Shown piece by piece: positions 4,685 to 62,420 of a DNA stretch of 64,000 nucleotides. The stretch lies in the IMG/VR virus record IMGVR_UViG_3300031963_000063, positions 21,487 to 85,486 of that record. One strand, 5' to 3'. Under the pieces are notes generated by a model, which saw only the letters and a program-made list of their open reading frames with translations, had not been told where the DNA came from and ran no database searches. Both the position numbers and the translations under genes were made by a program. Each line of letters starts with the position of its first letter. Position 1 is the stretch's first letter. Source of the stretch: a virus.

Positions 4685-4782
4685 CACTTTGCTCCAACTA
4701 GTTGTGCTAGTTGTGCTTGATGACGACGATCTTCTTTTTGTTTTTGTTCTTTAATAAGTTGTAGGAAGTTAAGTTTTTTCAC
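4684..4782 (-). CDS. Tiny basic peptide with GTG start (32 aa)
   Basis: GTG start at 4782 with an excellent ribosome site (GGAGG, 7 bases before). Product MKKLNFLQLIKEQKQKEDRR and then a Gln/Ala-rich tail. It overlaps both neighbours (GTGA with the 52-residue gene, TGATG with the 28-residue gene), the hallmark of translational coupling. Confidence 0.55.
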   Translation of the reverse strand: MKKLNFLQLIKEQKQKEDRRHQAQLAQLVGAK

Positions 4783-4937
4783 TTCTGCACCTCCGCATTT
4801 CTGCAAGGACGGTATGCTACTCCACGATATGTGTTTTGTGGATGAGCAGGAGCGTGTGTTTGGTTATACCATGACACATACTCTTTCTTTGCATTTTCGG
4901 TGTCGTACTGACAACCTCTATAAACGACTTTAGACAT
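4779..4937 (-). CDS. DUF4278-like protein (52 aa)
   Basis: Two YRG motifs (YRGCQY at 6-11, YRGVAYRPC at 37-45) recall cyanobacterial DUF4278 proteins, which carry a YRGxxY signature. Strong ribosome site AAGGAG precedes the ATG at 4937. Function unknown. Confidence 0.6.
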   Translation of the reverse strand: MSKVVYRGCQYDTENAKKEYVSWYNQTHAPAHPQNTYRGVAYRPCRNAEVQK

Positions 4938-4968
4938 TAGGTTTTCTCCTTAATTTTGAGGCTAAAGA

Positions 4969-5140
4969 GCGTTCCTTCAGTCGGCTTTTGCGTCTATGGG
5001 ACAAGTTTTTGGAGAGACTTGTTTAATCTCCCAAATTAAATCATTCTTTGCTTGTTTGGGAATATCTACTGTGTAAATTCTCCCAACCATTAATTGTGCC
5101 TGTAAGCAAGTTAAAATGATTGCTTCCATAGATGAACGTT
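4969..5140 (-). promoter_or_regulatory. Second glutamine-riboswitch-like element, split by the 50-aa ORF
   Basis: Seen: AACGTTCA at 5140-5133 leads into TCTATGG (5132-5126), which contains the ATG of the 50-residue gene. At the far end CCATAGA (4999-4993) is an exact 7-bp complement of TCTATGG. It is followed by GACGCAAAAGCCGACT and GAAGGAACGC (4978-4969), whose GAACG pairs with CGTTC at 5138-5134. Known: CGUUCA and GAAGGAACGC are blocks I recall from the glnA/Downstream-peptide glutamine riboswitch. Inferred: a related aptamer whose internal loop holds a gene. Confidence 0.4.
4977..5129 (-). CDS. Small protein (50 aa) inside the riboswitch-like element
   Basis: ATG at 5129; MEAIILTCLQAQLMVGRIYT then a polar C-terminus with PKTCPIDAKAD. 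Two cysteines and a weakly hydrophobic N-terminus suggest export or membrane association but give no family. Its start and stop both lie within paired segments of the riboswitch-like element. No strong ribosome site is present. Confidence 0.5.
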   Translation of the reverse strand: MEAIILTCLQAQLMVGRIYTVDIPKQAKNDLIWEIKQVSPKTCPIDAKAD

Positions 5141-5397
5141 CCGTTCCGAGTCGGCTTACTTCCGTCCTATTTAATTTTTAGCACTTTATAATTACGTCTT
5201 TTCGCAATTCTAATAGCAATCGGTCTTCAATCTTTTGGTGAACAACATCGTCGTTTTTAACGATGTCCATTAGTTCCCACGCTGCATTACAACTTATTGT
5301 GACTGGATATTCAGTTTTGATAAGTTGTGGTGAAGCAACAGAAAGAAGTGGAACCCATGCTAAAAGCAAAAGTGCTTTAGTCATAGGATGAACGTTA
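5134..5397 (-). promoter_or_regulatory. First glutamine-riboswitch-like element, split by the 68-aa ORF
   Basis: Seen: AACGTTCATCC at 5396-5386, ending one base before the ATG of the 68-residue gene. Twelve bases after that gene stops comes TAGGACGGAAGTA (5169-5157), then AGCCGACTCGGAACGGAACGTT to 5135. AACGTTC pairs 7 bp with GAACGTT, and TCCTA pairs 5 bp with TAGGA. Known: CGUUCAUCC and GGACGGAAGUA are blocks I recall from the cyanobacterial glutamine riboswitch. Inferred: a glutamine-sensing leader carrying an ORF in its loop, starting at the mRNA 5' end. Confidence 0.45.
5178..5384 (-). CDS. Small exported protein with signal peptide (68 aa)
   Basis: MTKALLLLAWVPLLSVAS is a clear signal peptide with a likely cut after Ala-Ser, leaving about 50 residues with a single internal Cys (SCNAAWELM) and a C-terminal Cys. 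Probably periplasmic. It is the first gene after the NtcA-type box and -10 element. Its ATG touches the 5' block of the riboswitch-like element. No family recognised. Confidence 0.65.
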   Translation of the reverse strand: MTKALLLLAWVPLLSVASPQLIKTEYPVTISCNAAWELMDIVKNDDVVHQKIEDRLLLELRKDVIIKC

Positions 5398-5404
5398 GGG
5401 GATT

Positions 5405-5410
5405 ATTATA
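5405..5410 (-). promoter_or_regulatory. -10 element for the nitrogen-linked small-gene cluster
   Basis: TATAAT (5410-5405) within a small palindrome TAGGGG-N9-CCCCTA (5396-5416). No recognisable -35, which fits an activator-dependent promoter. The start site would fall near 5398, so the RNA would begin at the riboswitch-like block. Confidence 0.5.
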
Positions 5411-5441
5411 CCCCTATTCATAGTATATAGGTAGTTTTGTG

Positions 5442-5457
5442 TGTATTTCCTGATACA
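5442..5457. promoter_or_regulatory. NtcA-type binding site
   Basis: TGTA-N8-TACA, an exact match to the extended GTA-N8-TAC recognition sequence of the cyanobacterial nitrogen regulator NtcA. It lies 32 bases upstream of TATAAT; closer TAN3T-type alternatives (TATACT, TACTAT) lie 15-17 bases away. The usual class II spacing is about 22, so the exact promoter geometry is uncertain. Confidence 0.5.
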
Positions 5458-18890: not shown

Positions 18891-21689
18891 TTATACCCAA
18901 CTGATACGAACATATCCATCACCACCTTTTCCACCAATACCAAAAAGAGTAGAACCACCATTATAACCACCCCCTCCTCCACCAGAACCACGTTTTCCAT
19001 CTCCACCATCACCAACAAGTCCCCTTTTTGGTGATGTTAATAATACATTTGAATTTGCACTTAGAAAAAGATCTTGAGAGAATAACAAAGAACTACATGA
19101 ATTAACAGTTCCAGACGTCCTTCGTATCCAATGAATTGTATCTGTTGAAATACATAAAAACCCACCCCCACCTCCGATTAAATGAGTAATATTTCCAAAA
19201 GTATATCTAATAGGTCCAGAAGTAATGGTAGTGGTTCTTAACCTCCATTCAATTCCATTCGTAGAACTAAAGAGTTGTTGTCCAACAGTGGTCCCAATAT
19301 TAAAAATTCCGTTACCAATATTAATGTCTTCGAGAGTATTTAGTGTTCCAACCGTTCTTAGTGTCCAATGTATTGTATTTGTTGAAACAATTAATACTCC
19401 ATTTGCACCAATAACATAATAATTTGAATTATGATATAATATCTCTTTAAGAGAACCAACAAAATTAGATGTTGTTCTAAAAGTCCAATGTATACTATCC
19501 GTAGAGTGATTTAAAATAAACGGTGATCCTCCCCCATATATGAATTCATTATTACCATATTTGATAGTAACTGCAATGCGACTGTCTGCTGTACCAACTG
19601 TCCTTCTTTCCCAAGTAATTAAATCTGTAGATGCTAGTATTCCAGTTTGGGATGTACCAGCAGATATAACATATATACCATTTCCATAAGCAATATCGTG
19701 GATTAAATTACTAGTGCTTATGTTAGAAAGTGGTAAAGGTAAAAGAGTCCACGATATTCCATTAGTGGAACTATGTAGCATTCCATTCTGTGTACAAATA
19801 AAATAATTATCATTTAAATATCTCATTTTACTTACTGAGGTTGATCGAAGTCCAACTGTTCTGAGAATCCAATAAGATGCATCAATAAGAGTAGCCCCGC
19901 CACCATTTGCCCCAGAAGAAACAGGATAACCATTAACTATAGGAGAATTAGCATTAGTGTAATTTCGAGAAGCAGTATTAATGTTACTGCCATAAAGAGA
20001 TGATACTCCACCAGTACAACCAAAAAATCTAAATTCATCAATAGTAGAACTTAGAGGTAACACAATTGGGGGAGATGCATATCCACCACCACCTCCTGTA
20101 GACATTGATTGATAATGATCTAAAGATGATGGGGCAGTCCATTCTGTATTATTAAATAGTTCTCCAAGAGTTGTTCCTGGTATGGGTATTAATCCTGGTC
20201 CTCCTCCACCTCCTGGGGCTGCATATAAATAACCAGTATTTGCGGAAGGTTCAATACCTCCCGCACCTCCGAGCAAATCACCGTTGGTAGATCCACCTTT
20301 TCCACCATTTAATGTTAAAATACTAGTATCACCATTCCAAGAAACTGTAGTATTACCACCATCTGTTGCAGCAGTGCCACCAGATCCAACCGTTACTGTT
20401 AAATCAGTTTGAATAAAACTACTTGGAATTTTCCAGGTGGCAGTTGCTCCACCTCCTCCACCTCCGCCAGCAAATCCAGAAATCAATGTATATGATGGTG
20501 AGTAACCAATCAATTGCCCTGTATTAGCAAAAAAACTTCCATTTAAGTATCTAATACTACCAGCACTACTATTGGTTCCAACAATACCTCTTTGAAACCA
20601 AACAATACCATCAGTTGAAGTTCTCACTCGACTATAGCTTGAATCAGCAGTAGTCGCAGCAAATATATTTTCTCCAAAATCAACACCACTAAGAACTACT
20701 GCTGTTCCAATAGTTCTTAGAGACCATATTACAGAATTAGTTGAAGTATGTAACCCATTAGACCCGACAACTACGTATATTCCATTTCCATATGCAACAT
20801 CATACAATGATGGTGATCCAGAAAGAATATTATTAGTCCAATTAATACTATCTGTAGATGTTGCAACTTGACCAAGATTTGCTATTAAAATAAGACCTGT
20901 TGCAAATTCACTTGGATAATATCTAATCCTAAGGATATTCTGAGCACCAGATATACCACTAGTTCTGGATCTCCAATGAATCGCATCAGTAGAGACAGAA
21001 ACAGCACCAGCAGAACCAGATATGACATATAAATTTGGAGATGGTGTACCAAATTCTGTGGCAGAAAATATAGTAGTAGAAATTAATCCAACTGTTCTTG
21101 CAGTCCAATTAATTGTGTCAGTTGAACTTGAAAGGATTCCATTGCCGCCAACGCCACCAATAATATATTTTTGTGCAATTGTTGGTATAGATGCAAGACC
21201 AACAGCATTACCTAAAAGAGAATTACCTACGGTTCTTGCTATCCATTGAATACCATTTGTTGACACACGCAACATTCTTGTACTCCCAGCAAACATATAA
21301 ATTCCACCATTTTGAATGTACAAAAATTCCCAAATTGTACTGCCCGCACCAGAAGTCCTAAAAGACCAGACAGAACCAATCTTATAATTACTTGGATTAG
21401 AACTGCCACTGGCACCGCCACCCCCAGCACCAGTAGCCGAAATTGTTACGAGTTCCGCATTTGATGGTATAGTAAAATTGTAAGTTCCTGCGGCATCATA
21501 TTCCACATAACCAGAAAGTGGTTCCCAAGAAACTACACTACCATTTGTAAATAAAGACTCATTTTCATTTGATATTACCCCAGGAATTACAGTTGCTCTG
21601 TCATCAACATATTGTTTATAGACAGCATCAGTTGATGAAGTTGCTGTCGTAATTCCCGTAATCTGATCTGATTTTATTTCGACTGCCAT
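18891..21689 (-). CDS. Glycine-rich fibre/adhesin protein with two predicted 7-bladed Asp-box propellers
   Basis: 932 residues. N-terminus with YKQYVDDRA, then AAGTYNFTIPSNAELVTISA and GAGGGGASGS, the start of a Gly_rich_2-like domain. Propeller-like blocks of seven STNGIQW-type repeats at about 105-406 and 606-890 interrupt it. The chain closes GGGGGGYNGGSTLFGIGG then GDGYVRISW. Ribosome site GGAGA precedes ATG 21689. Upstream gene ends 2 bases before. Confidence 0.75.
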   Translation of the reverse strand: MAVEIKSDQITGITTATSSTDAVYKQYVDDRATVIPGVISNENESLFTNGSVVSWEPLSGYVEYDAAGTYNFTIPSNAELVTISATGAGGGGASGSSNPSNYKIGSVWSFRTSGAGSTIWEFLYIQNGGIYMFAGSTRMLRVSTNGIQWIARTVGNSLLGNAVGLASIPTIAQKYIIGGVGGNGILSSSTDTINWTARTVGLISTTIFSATEFGTPSPNLYVISGSAGAVSVSTDAIHWRSRTSGISGAQNILRIRYYPSEFATGLILIANLGQVATSTDSINWTNNILSGSPSLYDVAYGNGIYVVVGSNGLHTSTNSVIWSLRTIGTAVVLSGVDFGENIFAATTADSSYSRVRTSTDGIVWFQRGIVGTNSSAGSIRYLNGSFFANTGQLIGYSPSYTLISGFAGGGGGGGATATWKIPSSFIQTDLTVTVGSGGTAATDGGNTTVSWNGDTSILTLNGGKGGSTNGDLLGGAGGIEPSANTGYLYAAPGGGGGPGLIPIPGTTLGELFNNTEWTAPSSLDHYQSMSTGGGGGYASPPIVLPLSSTIDEFRFFGCTGGVSSLYGSNINTASRNYTNANSPIVNGYPVSSGANGGGATLIDASYWILRTVGLRSTSVSKMRYLNDNYFICTQNGMLHSSTNGISWTLLPLPLSNISTSNLIHDIAYGNGIYVISAGTSQTGILASTDLITWERRTVGTADSRIAVTIKYGNNEFIYGGGSPFILNHSTDSIHWTFRTTSNFVGSLKEILYHNSNYYVIGANGVLIVSTNTIHWTLRTVGTLNTLEDINIGNGIFNIGTTVGQQLFSSTNGIEWRLRTTTITSGPIRYTFGNITHLIGGGGGFLCISTDTIHWIRRTSGTVNSCSSLLFSQDLFLSANSNVLLTSPKRGLVGDGGDGKRGSGGGGGGYNGGSTLFGIGGKGGDGYVRISWV

Positions 21690-47355: not shown

Positions 47356-47452
47356 ACCATCAGGGAAATGGTGGAGATACTATGCTCCCCGCACCCTTAG
47401 CGGGGATATGAGAGACGTTCTTATACACCCATAGGTCTCGGTTAGCGGGTGT
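47356..47452 (-). ncRNA. Structured psbA leader, possible PhotoRC-type RNA
   Basis: Three hairpins on the minus strand before psbA: ACACCC...GGGTGT (47452-47425), CCCCGC-N7-GCGGGG (47405-47387) and ACCAT-N7-ATGGT (47372-47356). PhotoRC RNAs are conserved structures in psbA leaders of marine cyanobacteria and cyanophages; position and size fit, but I cannot confirm the consensus by eye. Confidence 0.4.
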
Positions 47453-47497
47453 TTGACAATATTACAGAATGTTTAAGTTCCGTAACATTTGTTTACC

Positions 47498-58926: not shown

Positions 58927-59039
58927 CACATGCTCAGGCTCGCCACTTGCCCTTTGACTGGAGGCAAGAAACCAGGCGGGAGAGAGTCCCATCCGCACCA
59001 ACTGCCCTTGAGAGAGGCAGTAAACTCAAATAGGGTCAT
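58926..59039 (-). CDS. Possible 37-aa ORF in the GC-rich leader
   Basis: ATG 59039 with GGAG eight bases before; product MTLFEFTASLKGSWCGWDSL then PPGFLPPVKGQVASLSM. Notably GC-rich. It may be a real peptide, or a chance frame within a structured RNA; see the ncRNA entry over the same bases. Confidence 0.35.
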   Translation of the reverse strand: MTLFEFTASLKGSWCGWDSLPPGFLPPVKGQVASLSM

Positions 59040-62265: not shown

Positions 62266-62324
62266 CTATGTGTTGGTTTCAAGAAAGTGATTAAGACAAT
62301 CTTAAATTTTGTCATATTTGTAAA

Positions 62325-62411
62325 CGGAAGGTGGGAGAGTCGAACTCCCAAGGGCTTTAACACCTCAACTGTTTTCAAGACAGGTACCGTCGCCAATCGG
62401 TTTGACCTTCC
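62325..62411 (-). tRNA. tRNA-Ser(UGA)
   Basis: Type II tRNA on the minus strand: acceptor GGAAGGT/ACCTTCC with discriminator G, anticodon loop CTTGAAA (anticodon TGA), long variable arm around GAGGTGTTAAAGCCCTT, T arm GGGAG-TTCGACT-CTCCC. CCA not encoded. One mismatch in the anticodon stem base pair 27-43. Confidence 0.95.
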
Positions 62412-62420
62412 AAAAAGTCC

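Follow-up and report, generated by a model that had tools for sequence, protein, structure and literature searches.

A glutamine-I-family leader RNA of cyanophages, best read as an interlocked double aptamer whose arms can hold small genes

The window analysed here is a stretch of 64,000 nucleotides (positions 21,487 to 85,486) of the virus record IMGVR_UViG_3300031963_000063, which holds 85,486 bases and whose nearest relatives are T4-like cyanophages (blastn). Between positions 5394 and 4969 of the window, read on the minus strand, conserved blocks of the glutamine-I (glnA) riboswitch lie on either side of two small open reading frames (ORFs). An NtcA-type box GTA-N8-TAC (here TGTA-N8-TACA, 5442 to 5457) and a -10 box TATAAT (5405 to 5410) come first, with transcription probably starting at ca. 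5398. They are followed by block CGTTCATCC (5394-5386), ORF1 of 68 aa (5178 to 5384), blocks GGACGGAAGTA (5167-5157), CGGAACGG (5148-5141) and CGTTCATCT (5138-5130), ORF2 of 50 aa (4977 to 5129), and block GAAGGAACG (4978-4970), all on the minus strand. Further downstream lies a small DUF4278-like gene (4779 to 4937, minus strand; phrog_5049). The core words of the element are unique or nearly so across the 64 kb, and the 10-mer GACGGAAGTA as well as blocks GAAGGAACG and CGGAACGG each occur exactly once when both strands of the window are counted. Elsewhere on the minus strand, Rfam finds a wcaG RNA (58932-59029) and a PhotoRC-II RNA (47372-47464), both of which T4-like cyanophages typically carry, and a tRNA-Sec exactly at the cutoff (62324-62412; 47 bits) that ARAGORN calls tRNA-Ser (tga) and that is most likely an ordinary serine tRNA.

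Related loci were gathered by blastn of cyanophages and by two pattern scans of viral contigs, and all counts refer to the loci listed. The same double element is found upstream of a DUF4278-like gene in more than 140 cyanophage loci, and in the relatives that we read the gene following the element is a YRGVxY gene. A sequence-only reading of this DNA had named the blocks as those of glutamine riboswitches; all of them are present on the minus strand at the positions given above, their conservation in more than 140 cyanophage loci rules out chance, and relatives that keep both ORFs were looked at and keep the blocks as well. CGTTCA and the core are separated by 16-38 nt or by 143-235 nt, with no intermediate values, i.e., each P2 arm is a tight hairpin or an ORF. 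All four combinations of element 1 and element 2 are present: compact/ORF at 57 loci, compact/compact at 36, ORF/ORF at 24, and ORF/compact at 13. Two pairs of near-identical loci differ only in having ORF1 (L028 vs L052) or ORF2 (L068 vs L083) exchanged for a hairpin, and on a tree of the downstream gene the arm state changes at least 20 and at least 29 times, counts that are rough because the alignment of this gene is short.

Compact arms of freshwater phages (L003, L005, L009, L040, and others) share a common long hairpin TTCGCTATT...AATAGCGAA, located in element 1 in 8 cases and in element 2 in 15, as if swapped between the arms. A host origin gained no support: among at least 128 bacterial matches to a 3'-half pattern, which is blind to composite elements, no gene-sized P2 was found and no 5' block lay more than 118 nt upstream; three of these loci (L227, L240, and L268) have CGTTCA 83-118 nt before the core and possibly carry unusually long P2 arms. 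The signature of the inner hairpin described below gave five matches in 386 cyanobacterial genomes, all of them without aptamer context.

The nested ORFs are tightly registered to the RNA. ATG is the start codon in all 122 of them and lies 9-13 nt from the first base of CGTTCA. Those of element 2 stop at one and the same aptamer nucleotide in 83 of 85 cases, so that nucleotides of the aptamer core encode their C-terminus, typically DAKAD; in the window, this DAKAD end and the UGA stop of ORF2 are themselves core nucleotides. The stop of element 1 ORFs is the TAA within AAGTAA (giving the tail GRK) in 18 of 37, and the others stop before the core. Both ORFs are genes under purifying selection with a dN/dS of about 0.22: all 560 pairs have a dN lower than dS (162/162 and 398/398; medians 0.24 and 0.22), and with the ORF ends trimmed the medians are 0.225 and 0.193. 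The families of the two proteins are homologous by hhalign (93.6%) and share two invariant cysteines, a pair also present in ORF1 of the window. The latter is a freshwater relative of the family represented by phrog_6471, which is matched by ORF1 of P-SSM4 but not by the window's own ORF1, and tblastn of this ORF1 against phages returned only a poor Paracoccus match; marine homologues emerge from hhalign on alignments and from tblastn with the P-SSM4 ORF. Similarly, ORF2 of the window matches phrog_504 at an E-value of 0.041 only, compared to 5.6e-16 for its P-SSM4 homologue. The nested proteins connect to PHROGs of unknown function through their marine members, and the Pfam search returned no family for them. 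AlphaFold predicts a helical hairpin for ORF2 (pLDDT 83), while its model of ORF1 is weak (68.7).

That an ORF had twice filled the loop of an aptamer had been proposed in the sequence-only reading, and both the interchange of gene and hairpin in relatives and the pairing across the ORFs bear it out. In the window, the 5' strand of outer P2 (UCCUAU, 5383 to 5388) includes the AU of the ORF1 start codon and forms six base pairs with AUAGGA (5165 to 5170), so that ORF1 takes the place of the P2 loop. Likewise, ORF2 replaces the loop of inner P2', where UCUAUGG (5126 to 5132) includes the entire AUG of ORF2 and pairs with CCAUAGA (4993 to 4999), a 7-bp match that had already been noted and is exact; among 85 copies of ORF2, 81 have an AUG that overlaps the stem of P2'. 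Across loci with an ORF in element 2, the five basal P2 pairs are formed in 98.8% of cells compared to at most 85.9% when whole strands were permuted among loci (linked permutations), and the corresponding values for element 1 are 94.1% and at most 90.6%. Compensatory changes were looked for and are plentiful: a pooled alignment with the ORFs deleted has 57 cells changed on both sides, a number that none of 500 shuffles equalled and a signal that sliding abolishes, and P2 covariation is seen in compact and ORF-bearing arms alike, with the stem directly after CGUUCA. With only the ORF-deleted halves as its input, a covariance model recognizes glnA riboswitches of cyanobacteria, alphaproteobacteria, and SAR86, though its E-values are flattered because the bacterial loci had been picked by their 3' half. 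In an unconstrained fold of the full-length window RNA, P2 and P2' reach probabilities of 0.97 and 0.96.

The repeated exchange of genes and hairpins at the same spot, even between near-identical loci and, on the tree from the short alignment, in no fewer than 20 and 29 state changes, could also suggest that the blocks no longer sense a ligand and persist as structured mRNA or as a recombination site that exchanges small genes like cassettes. However, the stems in these arms are rebuilt with new sequences rather than copied, the entropy of the core is not higher in loci with ORFs, and RNA-specific covariation including the pocket-closing pairs is kept with and without genes, which makes this explanation very unlikely in our view.

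Several features indicate that the two elements form one structure. Element 1 carries the loop-E strand AGUA without GAA and element 2 carries GAA without AGUA, a split that is partly enforced by the search pattern but also holds in 18 blastn loci and in isolates found otherwise. The element is best read as one outer glutamine-I aptamer, to which element 1 contributes its 5' half and element 2 its 3' half, with a second, circularly permuted aptamer carried on P3 of the outer one. In the window, outer P1 would join CGUUC (5394-5390) to GAACG (4974-4970), while the junction strand CGGAAGUA (5157 to 5164) contributes AGUA and the strand GAAG preceding that GAACG (together 4970 to 4978) contributes GAA to loop E. 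P3 would form between AGCCGACU of element 1 (5149 to 5156) and AGCCGACU of element 2 (4979 to 4986), and G5162 pairs with C4969 as long-range closing pair. Inner P1' would be a hairpin of GAACG (5146-5142) and CGUUC (5138-5134), whose loop GAA (5139 to 5141) joins the ends of the permuted aptamer and whose fold probability is 0.93; the inner closing pair, G5141 with C4990 of the core CGC (4990 to 4992), is kept in 134 of 136 loci.

The sequence-only reading had instead seen two independent aptamers in tandem, and an ordinary tandem arrangement in which each aptamer closes on itself and the ORFs are large P2 insertions has some appeal: the P1 strands permit self-closing (100% paired and invariant), bacteria often carry glnA riboswitches in tandem (157 doublets; PMC9481103), and Rfam often matches single elements. 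Yet this arrangement leaves the halves of loop E split between its two aptamers, and the covariation runs across the elements. The closing pair between nucleotide 3 of the element 1 core and the nucleotide after GAACG of element 2, tested at positions left free in the search patterns, is Watson-Crick in 136 of 136 loci when read across elements (93 C:G and 43 G:C) but only in 63-69% of loci when read within them. Besides P2 and P2', an unbiased scan of 90 columns found this closing pair and E1_15:E2_6, which is paired in 118/118 loci (86 UA, 19 AU, 11 GC, and 2 UG); the two pairs mark out a P3 helix in which AGCCGACN of element 1 joins NGCCGACU of element 2. Cross-element P3 with compensatory changes is seen in three subfamilies. 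Isolates outside the patterns, found through their proteins or a 38-nt query, have AGUCG/CGACU across elements, compensated to AUUCG/CGAAU in P-RSM4, with further variants in S-B68 and S-N03. In S-SRM01, the first P3 pair is C:G instead of A:U. The composite structure is 97.8% paired and its cross-element pairs alone are 98.9% paired, values reached in 0 of 500 shuffles each. On the tree of the downstream gene, six of seven supported independent changes at E1_15 are matched at E2_6 and none is opposed (p 0.03), and for the closing pair, with only ca. six changes, all three supported ones are matched. Given that tandem P1 probabilities are near 0 in nearly all folds as well, we regard an ordinary tandem as improbable.

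Other parts of the earlier proposal also gave way. Its 7-bp pairing of AACGTTC with GAACGTT needs a second GAACG (GGAACGGAACGTTC) that relatives lack (GGAACG-GAT-CGTTC), and the suggested sharing of bases between the P1 strands of the two elements does not hold, because a conserved spacer of 3-6 nt keeps them apart. This GAACG-CGUUC spacer is never shorter than 3 nt in 136 loci, which fits the hairpin-loop requirement of inner P1'.

Outer P1 and inner P1' both come out of an unprompted RNAalifold prediction for compact relatives, and CGUUC/GAACG of P1 is paired in 54 of 54 composite sequences, though these strands are invariant and partly fixed by the search patterns. They consequently provide no covariation, and tandem P1 pairing could occur as an alternative state. 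Thermodynamic folding gives outer P1 a probability of 0.00 in the window and of 0.63-0.95 in L055, L052, L038, and L018. It is conceivable that the RNA alternates between tandem and nested pairings with glutamine or the ribosome picking the register, as the identical and interchangeable CGUUC and GAACG strands and the mixed probabilities in the fold of L017 would allow. We nonetheless consider such switching unlikely, with a tandem register that has no covariation in its favour and in which the closing pair is lost in about one third of loci.

Searching with Rfam covariance models, as the sequence-only reading had proposed, gave a divided result in that the window has no match but compact relatives match RF01739. 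For the window, the scan returned only chance matches at E up to 10 and none at gathering level, as would be expected with P2 loops of 140 and 224 nt where the model allows few bases. RF01739 aligns the whole composite of compact locus L022 as a single aptamer whose P3 takes an insert of 50 nt (40.7 bits; gathering cutoff 35) and S-CREM1 likewise (34.4 bits), for which a glnA match of 44.0 bits has been published (PMC9964418); this 99-nt match covers both elements. Single-element matches to RF01739 reach up to 37.8 bits, with several compact loci above the cutoff. The best scores for the glutamine-II (Downstream-peptide) model RF01704 are 33.1 and 33.0 in two relatives and lower in others (gathering cutoff 33), while the window has no match, and inspection of several loci by eye found no consistent complementarity or covariation for a P2 pseudoknot of the glutamine-II type.

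The scores of compact elements (28-41 bits, near the cutoff) stay below those of bacterial glutamine riboswitches (52-65 bits). Loop E is complete only for the outer aptamer, across elements, and missing from the inner one, so that one or both sites may differ in affinity or ligand. A glutamine-fold aptamer that has shifted to another ligand would account for both observations. On the other hand, the nucleotides that contact glutamine in crystal structures, i.e., the C:G end pairs of P1, the CGS strand, and the long-range closing pair known from glutamine-I and -II (PMC6698751), are all conserved and present at both sites, and a change of ligand therefore seems a rather poor bet to us. As read from the sequences, a two-site glutamine riboswitch arising through circular permutation, with gene-replaceable arms that make the regulated gene part of the ligand-binding fold and with translation and ligand binding exclusive by construction, is somewhat favoured.

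The element shares with glutamine-I (RF01739) the P1 of CGUUC/GAACG, P2, loop-E strands AGUA/GAA, P3, the closing pair, and a link to nitrogen status, but differs in the permuted second aptamer on P3, the genes in its P2 arms, and a loop E drawn from two elements. With glutamine-II (RF01704) it has in common small-protein genes in a cyanobacterial setting, which sit inside the element here rather than downstream, and, for the marine relatives, a CGC strand whose closing pair is C:G. Bacterial tandem glutamine riboswitches also have two copies of the aptamer motif per leader (PMC9481103), but each copy is complete and self-closing (e.g., L162 and L179). Tandem glutamine riboswitches (PMC2864571, PMC9481103) and glutamine riboswitches in cyanophages (PMC9964418) have thus been described before, while the literature that we searched describes neither genes placed in the arms of an aptamer nor a composite or interlocked glutamine aptamer; these two features would be what is new here.

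Group I and II introns are ribozymes with ORFs in peripheral loops, and the encoded proteins promote mobility. Like these introns, the element holds a protein gene in the loop of a structured RNA, but this RNA is of metabolite-aptamer type and encodes Cys-pair proteins of 49-73 aa and unknown function.

The proposed NtcA-type promoter gained support from relatives: GTAN8TAC is found upstream in 105 of 131 loci compared to 5.2% of background windows, at a fixed position that peaks at -57 to -62 from the aptamer. The -10 box lies downstream of it, just before the aptamer. Classic NtcA promoters have their box closer to the -10 box, by about one helical turn. Together, the two boxes make transcription under nitrogen stress likely, and we infer from the sequence that NtcA binds the GTAN8TAC box. 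In the window (5415-5397, minus strand) and most relatives, the -10 box is in the middle of an inverted repeat that varies in sequence but keeps its symmetry, with AGGGG-TATAATAAT-CCCCT in the window (arms at 5415-5411 and 5401-5397), TGTGTTA...TAACACA in marine phages, and GGTCTATAATGACC in others. In several marine phages (L004, L006, L008, and L018), manA RNAs adjoin the double aptamer upstream or downstream.

Comparison among loci provided the pairing pattern, the selection on the ORFs, their start and stop positions, and the interchange of hairpin and gene, from which we infer the following regulation by glutamine. The leader RNA would be a member of the glutamine-I family rebuilt as a double aptamer, with either a short hairpin or a gene as each P2 arm; the window has genes in both, and P3 of the outer aptamer would lead into the inner permuted one. 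When glutamine is plentiful, the double aptamer would close so that P2, P2', and P1' bury the start codons, which lie within the P2 stems, along with GGAACGGA, a sequence resembling a ribosome-binding site of ORF2, and the nested genes would be silent. Under glutamine scarcity, with the NtcA-type promoter active, ribosomes would enter the nested genes. As the end of ORF2 lies inside P3 and loop E, a translating ribosome would hold the aptamer open, making folding and translation mutually exclusive. A glutamine-II switch is an ON switch in the account of Klahn et al. given in PMC6698751, so this OFF reading of the nested genes draws only on the anatomy of the element.

The same RNA would also set expression of the downstream DUF4278-like gene, which must be what the compact versions without nested genes control. 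In the freshwater clade, a hairpin adjoining P1 (CUCUUUAG...UUAAGGAG, 4946 to 4969 on the minus strand of the window) masks the Shine-Dalgarno sequence of this gene. As a general expression platform it was rejected, since it is confined to this clade and marine relatives do without it. Taken as a whole, a glutamine-I-family leader built as a double aptamer with hairpins or genes as P2 arms, including the proposed control, is in our judgement the probable explanation of this locus.

Riboswitches usually precede the genes that they control, while here genes sit within the aptamer, and their start and stop codons and even C-terminal residues serve at the same time as aptamer structure. The swapping of gene and hairpin in the arms of natural phages is an experiment by nature on whether an entire gene fits into the arm of an aptamer. 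Searches of the Rfam type miss such elements, as in the window, which points to a large blind spot. The double aptamer is directly testable with RNAs of ca. 90-105 nt from known isolates. If the proposed reading holds, an NtcA-type promoter and an RNA of a glutamine-sensor family would together tie the infection of abundant cyanobacteria to the nitrogen status of the host.
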